Positions 4,602-36,992 of a DNA stretch of 64,000 nt are shown here, piece by piece. Within the stretch, counting starts at the first letter, position 1, and each line of letters starts with the position of its first letter. The notes beneath the pieces are model-generated. The model had not been told where the DNA came from and did not search any database. It saw only the letters and a list, made by a program, of their open reading frames with translations. Origin of the DNA: Arthrobacter castelli DSM 16402 (GTDB taxonomy: Bacteria; Actinomycetota; Actinomycetes; Actinomycetales; Micrococcaceae); contig NZ_AUMN01000010.1 in the NCBI RefSeq assembly GCF_000430705.1, forward strand, positions 1 through 64,000. Direction: 5' to 3'. The position numbers were made by a program, and so were the translations under genes.

Positions 4602-5551
4602 GAGGCTGACTCCGTCCGTAGCTTGGGATTGGTCAGGATGCCGACGATGTCGGCCAGCAGGTTGACCACGATGTAGAGCGCCGCGATCAACATGGACAGG
4701 GCCTGCACGACCTGCACGTCACGGTTAGCCACCGCGTCCACCAGCGCCTGGCCGATGCCGGGGTAGCGGAAGAGGAACTCGACCACCACGATGCCGCCGG
4801 CCAGCCAGGCCAGCTGGATGGCGACCACCTGGGCCACCGGGGCCAGCGCGTGGGGCACGGCGTGGCGGGTGATCACCTGGCGTTCGGGAACGCCCTTGAG
4901 CCGGGCCATTTCCACGTAGCCCGAATCCAGCACCTCCACCATGGTGGCGCGCATCATCCGGATAATGTACGGCATCACCACCAGCACCAGGGTCAGCACC
5001 GGCAGGATCAGCTGGGCCGGGTACTCCCAGACTTCCTGCCCGGGTGGTGACATGGTCACCGCGGGCAGGATGCGGAAGACGGTGGTGGAGAAGACCGTTA
5101 TCAGCACGATGCCGATGACGAACTCCGGCAGCGCGGCCAGCACCAGCGAGATGGCACTGGCGGTGTGGTCGCCGGCCTTGCCGCGGCGCAGCGCGCTGTA
5201 GGCGCCGACGATGATGCCCACCGGGATGGCGATGACCGCCGCGGCGACCATCAGCACCAGCGAGGCGGAGATGCGCTCGCCGAGCAGTTCGCCCACGGAG
5301 GCGCCGGTGACGGAGGCGCCGAAGTCGCCGACGAACAGGCCGCCGAGCCAGCTGAAGTAGCGCAGCCAGGCCGGTTCGTTCAGGCCCATCTGCTCGCGCA
5401 AGGCTTCCAGCCGCTCCGGGGTGGCCTGCTGGCCGAGCATCGCCCGGGCGGGGTCGCCGGGCAGCAGCAGCGTGGCTACGAACACCAGCACCGAGATGAT
5501 GAACAGAATGACGAGGCTGATCAGCAGCCGTCGGGTAATGAGTTTCAGCAT
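4598..5551 (-). CDS. ABC transporter permease, DppB type
   Basis: A 317-residue permease beginning MLKLITRRLLISLVILFIIS, with the usual DppB six-helix layout and the N-terminal periplasmic-side motif LPGDPARAMLGQQATPERL. The EAA loop is VEMARLKGVPERQVITRHAVPH. The start codon touches the last base of the binding-protein stop at 5551, and the end overlaps the next permease by four bases. It forms the translocation channel with the DppC-type subunit. Confidence 0.93.
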   Translation of the reverse strand: MLKLITRRLLISLVILFIISVLVFVATLLLPGDPARAMLGQQATPERLEALREQMGLNEPAWLRYFSWLGGLFVGDFGASVTGASVGELLGERISASLVLMVAAAVIAIPVGIIVGAYSALRRGKAGDHTASAISLVLAALPEFVIGIVLITVFSTTVFRILPAVTMSPPGQEVWEYPAQLILPVLTLVLVVMPYIIRMMRATMVEVLDSGYVEMARLKGVPERQVITRHAVPHALAPVAQVVAIQLAWLAGGIVVVEFLFRYPGIGQALVDAVANRDVQVVQALSMLIAALYIVVNLLADIVGILTNPKLRTESAS

Positions 5552-7263
5552 CAGGCCCTACCTCCCAACCAGACGCGGCGGAAATCGAAGCCGGACAACG
5601 CCAGTCCGGTGCGGTTGGGGACCAGCCCGGCCACGTACCGCTGGTACGCATCGGCCTGGTTGGAGAAGCCCCAGATAATGTAGCCGCCCTCGTTATATTC
5701 GAGGGTCTGCGCCTCGGCGATCAGCTTGTTGCGGGCCTTGTCGTCGGTGGTGGAGCGGGCCTCGTGGTAGAGCGCGATGAACTTCTGGTTGTTGAAGTGC
5801 GTCTCGTTGAACGGGGAGTCTGGCAGCGCGCAGTTGTTCGCCTGAGGCAGGAAGTTCCGGGTGTACCAGAAGTCCTGCGCGAAGGTCCATTCCAGGTAGT
5901 TCTCGCCGAAGAAGGTGGTGGTGTCCACCCGGCGGATGTTGACGTTGATGCCGGCATCCTTGGCCTGCTGCGCGAAGACCTGCGCGGCGGAGACGGCGCC
6001 GGCCTGGATTGGTGCGGTGACCAGTTCGACGTCGAGCCCGTCCGGGTAGCCGGCCTCGGCCAGCAGCTGCTTGGCCTTTTTGATGTCCTGCTTTCGCTGC
6101 GGGAGTTTCTCGGCGTAGCCGGGGTCGAACGGGGCGTAGAGGTCGTTGCCCACCGTGCCGTTGCCGCTGAGCACCTGCTCGATCATCTGTTCGCGGTCCA
6201 CGGCGTAGCGGAAGGCCTGTCGCACGCGGACGTCGTCGAACGGTTTCTTATCCACGCGCATGGTGAACGGCATCCACATGCCGGTCTCCGAATTGAGGAT
6301 GTCGATGCGGGGGTCGGTGTCGAGGACTTCGAGCAGCGCCAGTGGGATCTGGCCGATGGCGTCGACCTGGGTGGACAGCAGCGCGTTGATCATCGCGTCG
6401 CTGTCATCGAAGTTCAGGATCATCAGCTCGTCGAGGTACGGCAGGTTGTCCAGCCAGTAGTGCTCGTTGCGGCTGAACACGCTGCGCTGTCCCGGGGTGA
6501 AGGACTCGGCCTTGAACGGGCCGGTGCCGATTGGCTTGGCCGGGTCGTAGTCCTCGGGGACGATTCCCATCGCGTACTGGCCGATGGAGTCGTCGAAGGT
6601 GGCCACCGGGGTGTTGAGCCGGAACTCGACCAGGTGGTCGTTGATCACCACGACGTTGTCCAGGATGCCGAGGCCTGAAGCCCCGGACTTGGGGTCGTCG
6701 GGGTCGGTGATGCGAGCGAACGTGGCTGCCACATCGCGGCCGGTCATCGGCCGGCCGTCGTGGAACTTCACGTCCTTGCGCAGTTCAACCGTCCAGGTCT
6801 TGGCGTCCGACGACGGCGTGGCGCGGGTGGCCAGCAGCGGCTTCAGCTCGAAGTTCTCGTCCCGGTAGAGCAGCGATTCGTAGAGGGACACCACGCGGGC
6901 GATATCGGTGGTGCTGACCGGGATGTGCGCGTCCAGGGTGTCCGCGGCGCCGCCGCCGGCGAGCCCGATGCGCAGCGTGCCGCCGTGCTGCGGCTGGCCG
7001 GTTGGCGTGGCCAGCTGGTTGGGCGCGGGGCCGCCGCAGGCGGTGAGGGCGGCGCCGACGCCGAGGGCCATGGACCCGCCGAGCACGTTGCGGCGCGACC
7101 AGCGACCGGAGGTGATGGCGCCGGCCGCGCGGGAGATGGCACCGGGGGACCCGGTGCTGGCGCCGATGTTGGGGGAGCCGGCTGCGATGGCCGGGGTGGA
7201 ACTGGAACTGCCGGGCGCGCCCGGCGGATTCGGCTCCAATGGCTGTTGCGATTGGTGGTGCAT
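5551..7263 (-). CDS. ABC transporter substrate-binding lipoprotein (SBP_bac_5), Tat signal
   Basis: A 570-residue solute-binding protein of the oligopeptide/nickel family. The N-terminus is unusually long before the twin arginines (SRRNVLGG, Arg57-Arg58), followed by a hydrophobic stretch and the lipobox LTACGG with Cys76, so it is likely exported folded by Tat and lipid-anchored. The mature part has the family core, for example YESLLYRDENFELKPLLA and WTVELRKDVKFHDGRPM. The ATG at 7263 has AAGGAAA eight bases upstream. It lies 62 bp after the thioesterase and leads the transporter genes. Because carnitine enzymes precede it, it may bind carnitine or a quaternary-ammonium derivative; peptides remain possible. 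Confidence 0.92.
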   Translation of the reverse strand: MHHQSQQPLEPNPPGAPGSSSSTPAIAAGSPNIGASTGSPGAISRAAGAITSGRWSRRNVLGGSMALGVGAALTACGGPAPNQLATPTGQPQHGGTLRIGLAGGGAADTLDAHIPVSTTDIARVVSLYESLLYRDENFELKPLLATRATPSSDAKTWTVELRKDVKFHDGRPMTGRDVAATFARITDPDDPKSGASGLGILDNVVVINDHLVEFRLNTPVATFDDSIGQYAMGIVPEDYDPAKPIGTGPFKAESFTPGQRSVFSRNEHYWLDNLPYLDELMILNFDDSDAMINALLSTQVDAIGQIPLALLEVLDTDPRIDILNSETGMWMPFTMRVDKKPFDDVRVRQAFRYAVDREQMIEQVLSGNGTVGNDLYAPFDPGYAEKLPQRKQDIKKAKQLLAEAGYPDGLDVELVTAPIQAGAVSAAQVFAQQAKDAGINVNIRRVDTTTFFGENYLEWTFAQDFWYTRNFLPQANNCALPDSPFNETHFNNQKFIALYHEARSTTDDKARNKLIAEAQTLEYNEGGYIIWGFSNQADAYQRYVAGLVPNRTGLALSGFDFRRVWLGGRA

Positions 7264-7325: not shown

Positions 7326-7925
7326 CTACAGGGAGACGGAACGCCCCACCCAGTCCGGGGGTGGGGTGTGTACAGCTTGCTGGGTGAAGCTGTCGATATT
7401 GGCCTCGATGGTTTGCGGGAAGCCGCTGGTCCTGCCTGTGGTCGAATCCACGTGCAGGGCCAGTAATTCCTCGGTGGCGATCAGGGTGCCGGTCTCCGCC
7501 CGGGTCTCCACGCGCTCGCTGGCGCTCGCTTGGTCGACCACCGGGGCGGTGGTCGAGTAAGGCGCTCCGCGCCGCATCGAGACCGCGCTTGCTTGGTCGA
7601 CCACCGGGTGCGAATACATTTCGTGGGCCAGGTGCAGTTTCTTGGCGGCGGAACCGGCGATCGTCGTCGTCACTGTCAACGGCGCGCCCGCTCCGGTTTC
7701 TGCCAGGTACCGCACGTGCGCTTCGACGGTGTAGAGGGAGGCGCCGGTGTCCTTCCGGTAGGTCGCGTCCATGCCGAGGGCCTCCATCGCGGCGTCGGTG
7801 GCGTAGCCGAAGACGAGCACGTAGAACGCCTCGGACATGTGGCCGTTGTAATCGATCCACTCGTCCAGCACCGTGCACTCATACGGAGGCAGCGCCGCGC
7901 CCATGCCATGTGCCGCCGTCGTCAT
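7326..7925 (-). CDS. Hotdog-fold acyl-CoA thioesterase, probable betainyl-CoA thioesterase, with repeat-derived insertion
   Basis: The 199-residue product has the 4HBT/hotdog signature WIDYNGHMSEAFY at about residues 23-35, where the Asp/Asn-Gly-His-Met turn forms the active site. Betainyl-CoA thioesterases fused or adjacent to L-carnitine dehydrogenase are known, and here its ATG shares the last base of the dehydrogenase stop region at 7925. It would release glycine betaine from betainyl-CoA in the cytoplasm. Usual length is about 150-165 residues; residues ~107-143 (VVDQASAV...VVDQASAS...) are extra and are encoded by a palindromic DNA repeat inserted in frame between HEMYSHP and ETGTLIATEE. 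The catalytic core is intact, so activity may persist, but the insertion falls in a beta-strand connection and could impair folding. Confidence 0.85.
   Translation of the reverse strand: MTTAAHGMGAALPPYECTVLDEWIDYNGHMSEAFYVLVFGYATDAAMEALGMDATYRKDTGASLYTVEAHVRYLAETGAGAPLTVTTTIAGSAAKKLHLAHEMYSHPVVDQASAVSMRRGAPYSTTAPVVDQASASERVETRAETGTLIATEELLALHVDSTTGRTSGFPQTIEANIDSFTQQAVHTPPPDWVGRSVSL
7505..7610. repeat. Palindromic (REP-like) repeat element inside the thioesterase gene
   Basis: GCTTGGTCGACCACCGGG occurs at 7528-7545 and exactly again at 7591-7608, 63 bp (21 codons) apart. Between them TCGACCACC (7534-7542) pairs with GGTGGTCGA (7548-7556) across a five-base loop. The flanks GAGCGC-rich / GGTCTCGA-type sequences resemble short mobile intergenic palindromes common in high-GC actinobacteria. 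Its length keeps the host reading frame open. I saw no other copy in this window. Confidence 0.75.
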
Positions 7926-8935
7926 CAGCTTTGCCCCTTGACGGACGCAATCACGTTGCGGATGGCGATGATGACCTCGTCCCGCTCGGCGATCAGCTCG
8001 TCGACCGGCCGCGGCTCGGCGTCATCGACGCCGTCGACGACGTCGTCACGCAGCTGGCTGGTCAGTTCCGGGGCGTCCAGCCGGGTCCACGGGGACTTCA
8101 GCGACGGGCCGAAGTGGTCAAGCATGTGGCTCATGCCGCCCTGGCCGCCGGCGAGGTGGAAGGTGGTCATCGGGCCGTGGATGGGCCACCGCAGGCCGGG
8201 GCCGTCGGTAATGGAGCGGTCGATCTGCTCCACGGTGGCCTCGCCGTTGTCGATCATGTGCAGGGCCTCGCGCCAGAGCGCTTCCTGCAGCCGGTTGGCG
8301 ATGAAGCCGGGGACTTCGTGGTCCATGGTGATCACGGACTTGCCGATGGAGTCGTAGAACGCGGACGCCCACTTCACCGCTTCCGGCGCGGTGCGCTCGC
8401 CGCCGACAACCTCGACCAGCGGGATCAGGTACGGCGGGTTGAACGGGTGGCCGACCACCAGGCGGGACGGGTCGGCCGCCTCGGTGGCCATCTCGGTCAT
8501 GCTGTAGCCCGAGGTGGAGGAGGCGATGACGACGCCGGGCGCGGTCACCTTGTCGATGTCGGCGAGCAGCTGGCGCTTCAGCTCCAGTTTTTCCGGTGCG
8601 GATTCCTGGATGAAGCCCACGCCGTCGACCGCTTCGGCCAGGTCGGTGTGGACGGTGAAGTTGTCCTTATCGGCGGTCTCCGCCAGGCCGAGCTTGGTCA
8701 GCGCCGGCCAGGCGGCGTCGATCAGCGCGCTCAGCTTGTCGCCGGCGTCGGGGGAGGGGTCCCAGATCTTGACGCGGAATCCGCGGGCGAGGAAGTAGGC
8801 CGCCCAGCCGCCGCCAATGGTGCCGGCGCCGACGCAGGCGACTGTGCCGACGTCGGCCATGTTGGGTGCGGGCACTGTGGCTGCTTCGGCACCCGGGGTG
8901 CTGCCGGCGTCGTGCACGTTGCTGTTAATACTCAT
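7925..8935 (-). CDS. lcdH: L-carnitine dehydrogenase (3-hydroxyacyl-CoA dehydrogenase family)
   Basis: A 336-residue NAD-dependent dehydrogenase. The Rossmann motif GAGTIGGGW is at residues 36-44, and the 3HCDH catalytic region SSTSGYSMTEM...HPFNPPYLIPLVEVV follows. The C-terminal half has the carnitine-dehydrogenase-type segment DGPGLRWPIHGPMTTFHLAG and then SHMLDHFGPSLKSPWTRL. It would oxidise L-carnitine to 3-dehydrocarnitine with NAD+. The first 25 residues are poorly conserved, so translation could instead begin at Met26 (8860). It sits 9 bp after the cleavage-enzyme gene and abuts the thioesterase, giving the order of the pathway. Confidence 0.87.
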   Translation of the reverse strand: MSINSNVHDAGSTPGAEAATVPAPNMADVGTVACVGAGTIGGGWAAYFLARGFRVKIWDPSPDAGDKLSALIDAAWPALTKLGLAETADKDNFTVHTDLAEAVDGVGFIQESAPEKLELKRQLLADIDKVTAPGVVIASSTSGYSMTEMATEAADPSRLVVGHPFNPPYLIPLVEVVGGERTAPEAVKWASAFYDSIGKSVITMDHEVPGFIANRLQEALWREALHMIDNGEATVEQIDRSITDGPGLRWPIHGPMTTFHLAGGQGGMSHMLDHFGPSLKSPWTRLDAPELTSQLRDDVVDGVDDAEPRPVDELIAERDEVIIAIRNVIASVKGQS

Positions 8936-9927: not shown

Positions 9928-10956
9928 CTACTTGGCGACGTTGCGGTCGATAAAGCTTTCGATTTGCGCATACATCTGATCGGCAGTCAGGATTCCGGTC
10001 AGCACCTTGACGTTCAGCCCGTCGATCAACGACGTCAGATCCATGGTCACTACGTCCGGATCGGTGTCCACGAATACGCCCGCCTTCTGGCCGTCGACGA
10101 CGATGCCGTGCACCGTCTGCGCCCACCGGCGATAACTCTGGGCATGGCTGCTGCGTGAGGATTTGTCCACCGCCGCCTCGGACCAGGTCTGCAGCCAGAT
10201 GGACATCTCCGCCCAGCCGCGACCGACCGTGGGCAGCTGCAGTTCCGCCAGCCGCTTCAGCCGATCCACCGGATCAGAGTAGAGGTGCAACTCGGCGATC
10301 TGCCGGTCGAACGCCAGCTTCACCGAATACCGCAGGGCTTCGGCGAAGATCTCCTTCTTGGTGGGGAAGTAGTAGTGCACGCTGGCGCTGCTGGTGCCGC
10401 ACGCCTTTGCGATATCGGCGATCCGCACGGCGGCGTACCCCTGCTCAGCGAACAGCCACCACGACTTCTCGATGATGTCGCGGCGCTTCCGTGCCTGTTC
10501 GCTGTCCTCCCGGTGCCGGGTGGGCAGGATCTTCGGGGTCGGCGCCGCTGACGCACCGGCTGTTTCATCCGAGCCGGACAGCAGCCAGTTCACCGTTACA
10601 CCGGCGGCGTCGGCCAGCAGGGTCAGCTCGTCCGGACGGAACCGGCGGGTGCCCTTTAGCGCCTTGGACAGCTTGGTCTCGTCCAGGCCGATGGACCGGG
10701 CCACCTCGCGCTGGGCCAGCCCCGAGTTGCGGATGGACAACTTCACCCGTGCCAGCAGGGCGCCCTGCGAGTCGGCTGCGGCTGTAGATCCGGCGCCCCG
10801 GGAGTCGGCTGCGGCTGTAGATCCGGCACCCTGCGAGTCGGCTGTGGTTGTTGTTCCGGCACTATGATTGGCGGCGCCTCGGGTGGTGGCGCCTCGGGTG
10901 GTGGCGCCGGCCTGGTAAACCTCGTTTTGCGATGTCACCTGATCGACTATAACCAT
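9928..10956 (-). CDS. XRE-TetR fusion transcriptional regulator
   Basis: The 342-residue protein joins two DNA-binding domains. Residues ~1-65 are a low-complexity tail with tandem copies of an 11-residue unit ([10 protein letters not shown]-type). Residues ~67-127 form an XRE/HTH_3 domain ([20 protein letters not shown]). Residues ~155-215 form a TetR N-terminal HTH ([20 protein letters not shown] then [12 protein letters not shown]), followed by a TetR ligand-binding domain. The ATG at 10956 starts MVIVDQV; longer frames upstream lack family similarity. It is the first gene of the carnitine block in the same direction, so it probably controls that block and itself. The ligand is unknown; carnitine or a CoA ester is a guess. 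Confidence 0.85.
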
Positions 10957-13047: not shown

Positions 13048-13145
13048 TCCGGAGGGGGCTCACTCAGTGCAGCGGTATCCGGCGAAACCCAAGTCAGCGC
13101 AGCGGCCTCCGGCGGAGCCCCCACCCAGCGCAGCGGCCTCCGACG
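13048..13145. repeat. Degenerate tandem repeats between convergent genes
   Basis: Three diverged copies of a ~30-bp unit with core CAGCGCAGCGGCCTCCGGCG lie between the convergent HNH and M24 genes (around 13065, 13098 and 13131). They could be remnants of a duplicated palindrome. No gene is seen in 13018-13158. Confidence 0.4.
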
Positions 13146-13158
13146 GGATCCCTCCGAC

Positions 13159-23161: not shown

Positions 23162-25839
23162 CTTCCGCAGTGAGCCAGGCCGCACAGACAGACGGAGCGG
23201 CACCACCGGTGGGGCTGGCCGGAGTCGCGCACCGGGCCGCAGCCACCCTGACGGATTCCACCACCGCCGGTTTGCTGCTGGCCATTCCTGCCGGCCTTGG
23301 AGCTGAACCGCTGCTACGCAGCATCCTGGATGCCACAACGGTTCCGCATGTGGCGGTCCGGGGCATGGCCGGACTTAAGGACATGGAGTTCGGAGCGCTT
23401 GCCCCGTTGCTGAGCGCGGAGGCGTCCCTGAACTGTCCGCTGGAAGTGCTGGCCGCCGTCCGGAGGCATCTGGCCGAACAAGCCGGCGACGGGCCGGTCA
23501 TCATCGTGGTCCGGAACGCGGCCGACCTGGATGATGCAAGTGTCAATATCCTCGTCCAGCTGTGTACCGGTCCCGGGGTCAAGCTGTTGCTCCATACCCG
23601 CTCCCGCGGCTGCCTTCCCGATGGGTTCGCCCTGCTGGCCGCCGATGGGCGGCTCGCCGCAGTGGACACGCCCGAACTTCAGGCGCAGGAAATCCAGGCC
23701 TGGTGCCGCGCCGAAACGGGCACTTACACCCCGTATGTGACCGCGTTGGGCCTGCAGCACGCCACCGCCGGCAACCCGGTGTTCCTCTCGTACCTGCTCC
23801 GGGACGCCGCAACCGGACCGCAAATGCGCGTCGATGAAAACGTCCATGTCCTCGAGCGGCGGCTGGCACCGTCGCCAACGATGACCGCCGACGTCGTCAC
23901 TCTGCTCGACGGTTACTCTGATGCCGCACGCGAGGTGCTCACCGCCGTTGCACTGGCCGGAACGCTGGACCTGTGCACCCTGCGGACAGAGTGGGAGGCG
24001 GAGGTACTCAACAACCTGTTGCTGGAGAAGGTCTTGGTCCGCACCTGCGACGGGGGCGAACGGGTCAGTGTGCAACCGGCGTTGCTGTCGGAGGCGATTG
24101 CGGCAAGTGTCGGCGTATTCACCCGCCGGGCGTTGTGGCAGCGGCTCGAACCGCAGCTGAAGCATGCGACGGCAGCCGGAGCCGTACTGGCCCGGGTGCA
24201 GTGGCAGCTGTCCATCGGCGACCGGCCTGCCGCCGGGGATTTAGTCTCCGCGGCGGCCACTGCCAACCGCATGGACGACCCCCACACTGCTATGGCGTTG
24301 CTGGATGAGCTCGACGACGACGCGCCGGGTTGGGCAGGGATGGTGCAGCGGGCGCGTGCACTGTTCTATCTGGGAAGCGTGGAAGCGGCCCTGCAGTGCG
24401 CGTCGAAACTGGTGGAACCGGATCCGCACGACGCTGATGGCCTTAATGACTATGACCACTTGCTTACCTTGTTGGCCCAAATCCGTTTGTCGACCGGCAA
24501 GGGCGCAGAGCTGTTCGGCGCCGCGAGCCGTCGGTGGAAAGAGGCGGTCACCGGCGGCGCTGCGGCAGGGGAGCGGCAGCTGATGATGCTCTCCGCCGTC
24601 GAGCAATTGGCATCGGGTGTTTCCTGCCCGACGGCGCTCGCCGTCCAGCTGCCCGGGCTGCCCGAGGGACCGGAGCTGCCCGGGCTGCCTGGGTTGCCCG
24701 GGCGGCCTGGGTTGCCCGGGCGGCCGGATGACGGCGGACGGGAGGCAGTCATCCGCCGTCTGTTGTTGGGTGAGGCCGCCGCATGCTCCGGGGATATCGC
24801 GGTTGCCGCCGACCATTTGAGCGCCGCCCTGGAGAGCGTGCTGGCGGATGACGACCTGCGGAACTACGGGGTGTATATCCTGATTCGGCTGTTCCTGGTG
24901 CTGTGCCTGGGCGGGTACTGGGACAGGCTGGACGACTGGTTGGACCGGTTGGAGCTCCATGCCGCCCCGTGGCTGACGCAACTTGTCGGACTCGGTGAGC
25001 TGACTGCCGGGATCCGGATGCTGCAGCAGGGCCGCCCCGGTGACGCGATGGAGGCACTGCATGCCGCCGTCGTCATCCTGCGCCACCGCGACACCCGGCA
25101 ACTGCTGCCGCTGGCCACCGCCATGGCCGCCTGCGCCGCCGGGATCTGCGGGGACGCTGAAGGAGCGGCCCGGTATCAGCAGGAGTTCAGCAGCTTGCCC
25201 TCTGCAGGGGTGCCGTTCGCGGCGTCGTATGCCAAGGCCTTCGCCGCCGTGGCTCGCACGCCGGATTTGGGCCCGGAAGCGGTCAGTGCGGAACTTTCGC
25301 GGTTGCTGGCGCAGGCATCCGATGCCGGTGCGCGGCGGTCGGAAATCGAGATCACCGCGCTGCTGTTCCAATTCGACCGCAGTGTGCGGCCGGGACGGCT
25401 GGCCGGGCTGACCACCGGGGTCGAAGATCCCCGGGCGAAGGCGTTGCATGCGTATGCGCTGGCTCTGGAAACGGACGACGGTGCGGCCCTGTTGGAGGCC
25501 GGCCGGGCAGCCGCTCAGCTGGGGCAGGGCCTGATGGCTGCCACGGCGTTATCGCGGGTGCTCCTGCAGGCGGGCCACGGACGGCACCGGGTCTCACCTG
25601 ATGCCATGGCGCTGCTCGGCCGGCTGCATCCGCAGGCACAGGAACTCTATCCGCGGCTGCTGGAGCTGCGCACCCGGTCGAAGCTTACCGCACGGGAGAG
25701 GGAAGTCGCCGCCGGTATTGCCACCGGCCGGACGTCGCGGCAGCTCGCGGCCGACGCCGGTGTTTCCGTGCGGACGATTGACGGTCACGTGCACCGCATC
25801 ATGGGCAAGCTCGGCGTGAACTCGCGCAGGGAACTGTAG
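23158..25839 (+). CDS. LAL-type LuxR-family regulator with degenerate ATPase site (second of pair)
   Basis: An 893-residue paralogue of the preceding protein, starting in an ATGA overlap. Aligning the two by eye, the P-loop position reads IPAGLGAEP instead of GSKGSGKTT, so the Lys and Ser/Thr that bind ATP are gone, and the Walker B Asp is replaced (VIIVVRNAADLDD). The C-terminal LuxR HTH is intact (LTAREREVAAGIATGRTS then VRTIDGHVHRIMGKLGV). A collagen-like run of LPG/RPG triplets (LPGLPGLPGRPGLPGRP) lies at about 24650-24725. It probably acts with the first protein, either as a heteromer partner or as a DNA-binding partner without nucleotide control. Confidence 0.87.
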   Translation: MTSAVSQAAQTDGAAPPVGLAGVAHRAAATLTDSTTAGLLLAIPAGLGAEPLLRSILDATTVPHVAVRGMAGLKDMEFGALAPLLSAEASLNCPLEVLAAVRRHLAEQAGDGPVIIVVRNAADLDDASVNILVQLCTGPGVKLLLHTRSRGCLPDGFALLAADGRLAAVDTPELQAQEIQAWCRAETGTYTPYVTALGLQHATAGNPVFLSYLLRDAATGPQMRVDENVHVLERRLAPSPTMTADVVTLLDGYSDAAREVLTAVALAGTLDLCTLRTEWEAEVLNNLLLEKVLVRTCDGGERVSVQPALLSEAIAASVGVFTRRALWQRLEPQLKHATAAGAVLARVQWQLSIGDRPAAGDLVSAAATANRMDDPHTAMALLDELDDDAPGWAGMVQRARALFYLGSVEAALQCASKLVEPDPHDADGLNDYDHLLTLLAQIRLSTGKGAELFGAASRRWKEAVTGGAAAGERQLMMLSAVEQLASGVSCPTALAVQLPGLPEGPELPGLPGLPGRPGLPGRPDDGGREAVIRRLLLGEAAACSGDIAVAADHLSAALESVLADDDLRNYGVYILIRLFLVLCLGGYWDRLDDWLDRLELHAAPWLTQLVGLGELTAGIRMLQQGRPGDAMEALHAAVVILRHRDTRQLLPLATAMAACAAGICGDAEGAARYQQEFSSLPSAGVPFAASYAKAFAAVARTPDLGPEAVSAELSRLLAQASDAGARRSEIEITALLFQFDRSVRPGRLAGLTTGVEDPRAKALHAYALALETDDGAALLEAGRAAAQLGQGLMAATALSRVLLQAGHGRHRVSPDAMALLGRLHPQAQELYPRLLELRTRSKLTAREREVAAGIATGRTSRQLAADAGVSVRTIDGHVHRIMGKLGVNSRREL

Positions 25840-36822: not shown

Positions 36823-36946
36823 ATGTTCGGCCGGGCAGGGAAACTTCGCTTGGGACTGGACGAACCGCGCTGTCTCCCCATTTCCTCCTGCCTGTAGGAA
36901 CGGCGCGTGGACATCCGGATGGGAATCGGCAGATCGGCCTGGCCCT

Positions 36947-36992
36947 CCGGCACGATGCCAGGCCCTGCCCACCGGCACGATGCCAGGCCCTG
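36947..36992. repeat. 25-bp tandem duplication
   Basis: CCGGCACGATGCCAGGCCCT followed by G occurs at 36947-36967 and identically at 36972-36992, just downstream of the pobA stop. Confidence 0.7.

Follow-up and report, generated by a model that had tools for sequence, protein, structure and literature searches.

Palindromic repeats that have become part of proteins are described in Rickettsia and Wolbachia, where, according to the accessible sections of two reports, dispersed palindromes occur in frame at solvent-exposed sites of conserved housekeeping proteins, and where some genes have been struck at one locus by different elements (PMC3767692, PMC2229807). The Methanocaldococcus repeats and the PARCELs are other examples of protein-coding palindromes (PMC2996958). 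Intragenic copies are also documented for REPs of the GTAG/CGTC type, which lie within genes of several species, many of them genes of replication and repair (PMC3733652); a RAYT and its REP together form a REPtron. In-frame selfish palindromes were thus formerly a curiosity of Rickettsia and Wolbachia, with some later examples from REP-rich bacteria, and their mover either had not been identified or was a RAYT. They are now found in a member of the Arthrobacter family of actinobacteria, together with a candidate enzyme whose gene lies between repeat copies in dozens of genomes.

The window considered here comprises 64,000 nucleotides of a contig of Arthrobacter castelli DSM 16402. It contains, on the minus strand at 7326..7925, a gene for a 4HBT/hotdog thioesterase of 199 amino acids (P0001; Pfam 4HBT_2, E 1.7e-25) that resembles carnitine/betainyl-CoA thioesterases. 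Its similarity to the C-terminal part of PRK07531 (carnitine 3-dehydrogenase) has an E of 1e-33, a match far below the cut-off of that model, and its PDB relatives are 2hlj and 5eo2. Neighbouring genes, which are context and not part of the element, encode an L-carnitine dehydrogenase-like protein of the 3HCDH type, as judged by domain matches (7925..8935, minus strand), and a family-5 solute-binding protein (5551-7263). The thioesterase gene is interrupted without loss of frame, and the reading preferred here, with a probability of about 0.68, is that it carries a compound copy of a dispersed, palindromic, non-autonomous repeat, accommodated in a permissive surface loop, for which a GIY-YIG nuclease would be the mobiliser.

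A palindromic repeat inserted in frame in the thioesterase at 7505-7610 had been put forward in the original prediction, and its presence in the minus-strand frame 7326-7925 is borne out. The location and the exact 18-mer on which that claim was built both hold, the 18-mer (GCTTGGTCGACCACCGGG) being included in a 24-nt direct repeat (7522-7545 and 7585-7608, one mismatch). The insertion is, however, longer than proposed (7491..7609, minus strand) and is a composite of three units followed by a tail. Read along the coding strand, it comprises a partial B unit (CGGTGGTCGACCAAGCAAGCGC), an inverted A unit (GGTCTCGATGCGGCGCGGAGCGCCTTACTCGACCACCG), the trinucleotide CCC, a full B unit (CGGTGGTCGACCAAGCGAGCGCCAGCGAGCGCGTGGAGACC) and a 12-nt tail repeat ending in GAGACC. 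The partial B unit (7585..7608, minus strand) consists of the 5′ part only and corresponds to the second copy of the direct repeat. The A-type unit (GTGGTCGAGTAAGGCGCTCCGCGCCGCATCGAGACC; 7549..7584, plus strand) is inverted relative to the B units, and the full B-type unit (GTGGTCGACCAAGCGAGCGCCAGCGAGCGCGTGGAGACC; 7503..7541, minus strand), a pattern match like the A unit, is read as VVDQASASERVET. The tail (7491..7502, minus strand) also follows many other copies of the repeat. The thioesterase translation across the whole segment runs from HEM through YSHPVVDQASAVSMRRGAPYSTTAPVVDQASASERVETRAETG to TLIATEE.

Inverted repeats of 15 nt link 7529-7543 with 7547-7561 and 7547-7561 with 7592-7606. 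The former two arms delimit the core (7529..7561, a feature without strand) of a single DNA hairpin formed by the inverted A and B pair, with a stability of -29.3 kcal/mol (z = -4.7) that none of 200 shuffles equals. The 9-bp stem-loop of the original prediction is a part of the composite segment. Repeat units of the family are palindromic, measure 36-41 nt and usually occur as A/B pairs arranged head to head.

Compared with two relatives of the same family (G017 and G022), whose thioesterases have a loop of four residues between HEM and the (Q/K)LIATEE strand, the gene is extended by 117 nt. This is indeed a multiple of three, as had been anticipated, and the gain amounts to 39 codons where about 37 residues had been expected. 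The alignments with 2hlj and 5eo2 run up to the insertion loop and resume beyond it. Not all relatives carry the segment, contrary to what would have refuted the original prediction: G017 and G022 lack it, and the congener G001, a sister species, has at the insertion site a hydrophilic stretch of about 35 amino acids that is unrelated to the repeat. The loop is variable in length among relatives, and the element may have landed in a loop that was already permissive. In the AF2 model, the core of the thioesterase reaches a pLDDT of about 80-94 and matches the hotdog structures 5eo4 and 2hlj, while the insert residues 111-142, located between strands 96-105 and 147-160, fall below 50. The expectation that the insert does not break the catalytic domain agrees with this model, which predicts an intact hotdog core with the insert as a disordered loop. 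A non-structured insert is also a feature of RPE-like elements, the thioesterase being the one protein modelled in this respect.

The repeat is a dispersed, multi-copy palindromic family in its own genome. The search for further copies that had been suggested returns 52-54 BLAST matches to the insertion repeat and 59 matches to the pattern GTGGTCGASYARG-N-GAGACC, against none for a reversed-pattern control; the insertion is therefore not a chance resemblance. In the family sample (61 genomes), Arthrobacter sp. CAU 1506 has 49 pattern matches, the sister species of each of these two genomes (G001 and G440, respectively) have none, and the other 57 genomes have at most one each, taken as chance. 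When 84,980 species were scanned for the exact pattern, a set in which the present species was possibly not represented, matches were found in CAU 1506 and Arthrobacter sp. H5 only. The B-type 39-mer of the thioesterase recurs identically in CAU 1506. Identical 39-mers in two genera, together with the absence of the repeat from the sister species, suggest that it may have spread horizontally. Plasmid and phage collections, searched as possible vehicles, contain no match to the repeat, and no target-site duplication is recognised in the flanks of the copies.

Many conserved proteins of the two genomes contain copies in frame. Sixty stretches around copies in the own genome and in CAU 1506 were examined, their flanks being scored over the whole flank by codon usage trained per genome (80-codon windows are too noisy). 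Among 76 copy clusters, of which one or two are perhaps chance matches, 21 lie in frame inside an open ORF, with coding signal both before and after the cluster. For this reason, the designation 'protein-coding REP' in the original prediction is right in kind, although the family is not a strict RAYT-linked REP, as no Y1 transposase is found in the five genomes searched. Host proteins were named from their Pfam domain content. In the own genome they are HrpA, IleS (two sites), PurL, GcvP, HsdM, the thioesterase and an alpha-amylase-family protein whose sequence points to TreY. In CAU 1506 they are SMC, an AMP-binding/abhydrolase protein (two sites), TrmD, Lhr, a Peptidase S58 protein, HrpA (two sites), IleS, a dihydrolipoamide acyltransferase (two sites), a Cys/Met PLP enzyme and a TPP enzyme. 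MazG and TilS have N-terminal copies. Pfam domains span or bracket the inserts in the case of IleS (tRNA-synt_1), HrpA (DUF3418), the SMC hinge, N6_Mtase, AMP-binding and Peptidase_S58; the unit within the SMC hinge domain of CAU 1506 is found at positions 6432-6468 of locus L143.

Corresponding loops of IleS (L115 in the own genome, L157 in CAU 1506) and of HrpA (L108 and L152) are struck in both genomes, apparently by independent insertions in the two genera. Orthologues at the insertion sites are mostly short in G440 and G022 and, in several cases, long, hydrophilic and unrelated in G001, and the insertion sites are loops that tolerate variation in length. No clear case of a frame-breaking copy is seen among the clusters, in a screen whose design was not aimed at pseudogenes. 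In the repeat-free G001, the corresponding loops are occupied by long, unrelated, hydrophilic stretches of low complexity in the thioesterase, IleS, PurL and HrpA (loci L240, L249, L253, L255 and L038). That such loop segments are decayed copies of the element was considered and rejected, as their similarity does not exceed that of codon shuffles in four of five genes; for the fifth, PurL, the value is 1/300 in direct alignment, but this is not reproduced against the repeat units.

The B unit is open in each of its six frames, and a copy read as VVDQASASERVET or its variants (the VVDQ frame) occurs in 17 of the 21 in-frame clusters. This excess has a p of 2e-10 against a chance of 1/6 per cluster, a model in which paired units count as single, and of 1e-5 against 1/3, which allows two chances per cluster. 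The VVDQ frame is the most acidic of the six, with a net charge of -2, while four others are basic and one is neutral. The simplest reading of the preference is selection for tolerated hydrophilic loops; it may also reflect a phase preference of insertion. The route from small elements to new protein segments that the original prediction suggested is represented here by the in-frame copies; the idea has been put forward in print before, for Rickettsia, Wolbachia, Methanocaldococcus and REP-rich bacteria.

A candidate for the mobilising enzyme is provided by the genomic context of the units. At positions 173491-173967 of contig C1 of the own genome (locus L109, 2994-3466), a small ORF located between two inverted A units (gene at C1:173625-173900) encodes a 92-amino-acid GIY-YIG nuclease (PF01541, E 1.7e-15), for which NCBIfam has no model. 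Standalone GIY-YIG genes are present in all element-bearing genomes checked. G001, G017 and G022 have just a GIY-YIG match of the uvrC type in a long frame, as does G440, with one additional weak match in a 256-aa frame. The residues Y5, Y15, R25, H29 and E62 of the protein do not vary among 27 homologues. It has a confident structural model and is closest to the UPF0213 proteins (1zg2, E 2.2e-14) and to the branched-DNA nuclease Slx1, a proximity that makes cleavage of hairpins or cruciforms plausible. The standalone UPF0213/YhbQ-type nucleases share with it the size, the active-site residues and the fold (1zg2, 1ywl). The records consulted in Pfam, PDB and NCBIfam contain no tie to palindromic repeats, nor do the open papers searched, whereas here repeats flank most of the genes.

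The generality of this arrangement is apparent from an unselected sample of the class, in which 40 of 395 genomes have a GIY-YIG homologue and 28 loci, one per genome, are readable. A repeat common to both 350-bp flanks is found at 25 of these 28 loci, against 0 of 13 uvrC loci and 1 of 126 window placements, while three have no common flanking repeat of any kind. The narrower motif TGGT(C/T)GA...GA(G/A)ACC occurs on both sides of 19 loci, against 0 of 139 controls (0 of 126 for the window placements), which leaves about nine of the 28 without it on both sides; this motif was derived from element-bearing loci, and the common-repeat test is independent of it. Upstream of the gene, the nearest unit is forward in 17 of 21 cases (p 0.007), and downstream it tends to be reversed (14 of 19, p 0.06). 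Gene and element also coincide in their distribution. In the family they occur in the same two of 61 genomes, which are the sole carriers of either (p 5e-4), and the gene is present in each of the six genomes of the class sample that have at least four pattern matches (p 8e-7), both p values ignoring kinship. GIY-YIG genes of the UPF0213 type are therefore associated, across actinomycetes, with flanking repeats of the same superfamily.

In the own genome the nuclease gene is flanked by A-type units, the same type as the A unit of the thioesterase, and the element of the protein that is read in the VVDQ frame is of B type and thus not exactly the same. In G118 and G219 the gene is flanked by cores resembling B (AGCGAGCGCCAGCGAGCG), and these connect the unit inside proteins with the units beside the gene. 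The gene-flanking units of CAU 1506 are diverged (GGTGATC...GAGATCC). Some genomes possess several such genes: five standalone GIY-YIG genes are found in G210 (for example at L173, L183 and L193) and three in G118 (L169, L181 and L194), each of the latter with its own variant of the flanking repeat. Multiple genes with their own repeat variants suggest specific gene-repeat pairs.

Given these associations, a pathway may be proposed in which repeat units, paired head to head, would be able to extrude hairpins. The GIY-YIG nuclease, expressed from a gene bracketed by units, would then nick or cut the hairpin or cruciform of a unit, or its target. Such cutting would lead to copying of the unit to new places by repair or replication, in the way that RAYT acts for REPs. 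Copies that break genes would be lost. Copies in frame in flexible loops, read in the hydrophilic acidic frame, would persist as new protein segments that are probably neutral or nearly so. The broader proposal of a two-component mobile system of actinomycetes, with palindromes moved by a UPF0213-type GIY-YIG nuclease and non-autonomous copies adding acidic in-frame segments to essential proteins, stands at about even odds, and movement of the repeat by the nuclease is its inferred part.

The connection between nuclease and repeat is known from genomic association and not from biochemistry, which leaves room for repeats that are, or once were, mobile by other means. The nuclease gene would then be selfish or homing-like, with repeat arrays serving it either as safe harbours or as sites to cut, and another enzyme or host replication would spread the repeats. 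GIY-YIG proteins are classically homing endonucleases, as stated in the accessible part of a survey (PMC1564403), and in G083 and G411 the gene is flanked by long mixed arrays and not by a clean pair. Against this explanation, the local architecture of gene and repeat is conserved over several families, presence and absence agree in the family (the same two genomes) and in the class sample (six of six), and no RAYT is found in the five genomes tested; we regard it as unlikely. If the repeats were instead an ordinary REP or REPIN family moved by a RAYT, the size of the units, their palindromic form, their head-to-head pairs and their clusters would fit, since all correspond to REP/BIME anatomy (PMC3733652). 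But the Pfam model for Y1_Tnp (PF01797), the one model applied, gives no match above its cut-off in the own genome, G001, CAU 1506, G440 or G118; a RAYT as mobiliser is accordingly rejected, and this alternative retains a very slight probability.

It may be asked whether the insertion was selected for a function of the acidic peptide, such as regulation, solubility or partner binding. The strong bias to one hydrophilic acidic frame in unrelated proteins and the independent insertions in the same IleS and HrpA loops of two genomes are in line with such a function. However, G001 has unrelated sequences in these loops, G440 and G022 manage with short ones, the model predicts a disordered segment, and tolerance accounts for the same facts, so that the functional explanation appears improbable. 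The last alternative considers the segment as a long-standing loop of the thioesterase, passed on vertically and with no more than a resemblance to the repeat, or as a local expansion by slippage. The stretch of about 35 amino acids at the thioesterase site of G001, and its likewise long IleS, PurL and HrpA loops, could be cited in its favour, but the G001 thioesterase segment is not similar to the repeat above codon shuffles, and slippage cannot produce an inverted A-B pair common to another genus. As a full account it is refuted by the recurrence of the same unit, in either orientation, at dozens of loci that are unrelated, and it has hardly any probability left.

Among the systems described above, the family acts like RPEs inside proteins, resembles a REPtron around the nuclease and fails the RAYT test. 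As with RPE-1 to RPE-7 and the Wolbachia elements in the accessible sections of the reports, in-frame palindromes lie inside housekeeping proteins and the same loops are struck repeatedly. The present repeat is likewise a dispersed palindromic family, inserted in frame in conserved proteins and absent from orthologues, a likeness judged by description. RPEs, as reviewed in these sections, measure 100-150 bp and are known from Rickettsia and Wolbachia, whereas the present units are 36-41 nt long and reside in a high-GC actinomycete; the sections describe no nuclease gene associated with RPEs, in contrast to the units that flank the GIY-YIG gene. With REPs, BIMEs and REPINs the family shares palindromic units of 20-40 nt, head-to-head pairs, clusters, a small nuclease or transposase gene flanked by units, and intragenic copies. 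It differs from a REPtron in having no Y1 tyrosine transposase in the five genomes searched, the flanked gene encoding a UPF0213-type GIY-YIG nuclease, and from REPs in that no GTAG or CGTC tag defines the end of the units. In the PARCELs, too, protein segments are encoded by palindromic DNA, which spreads from genome to genome (PMC2996958), but the PARCELs form tandem repeats of 25 amino acids, often in membrane or surface proteins, while the units described here are short, single or paired, and located in housekeeping enzymes. Among open papers, the range covered, none links GIY-YIG proteins to REP, REPIN or such palindromes, although an earlier description is possible, and the accessible part of the GIY-YIG survey (PMC1564403) does not mention such repeats.

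If the nuclease does move the repeats, the system would parallel REP-RAYT, but without a RAYT and with another nuclease fold. The mover of protein-coding palindromes becomes directly testable, and UPF0213-type nucleases gain a possible role. The in-frame copies further provide, as a natural catalogue, the loops of IleS, TrmD, SMC, HrpA and other proteins in which 13-75 additional residues are tolerated.

Short tandem repeats are also present elsewhere in the window. Three copies of a 33-nt sequence (11 codons), 86-94% alike, occur at 10759-10860, and two-copy repeats of 25-31 nt are found at 13088-13146, 24647-24700 and 36936-36985.
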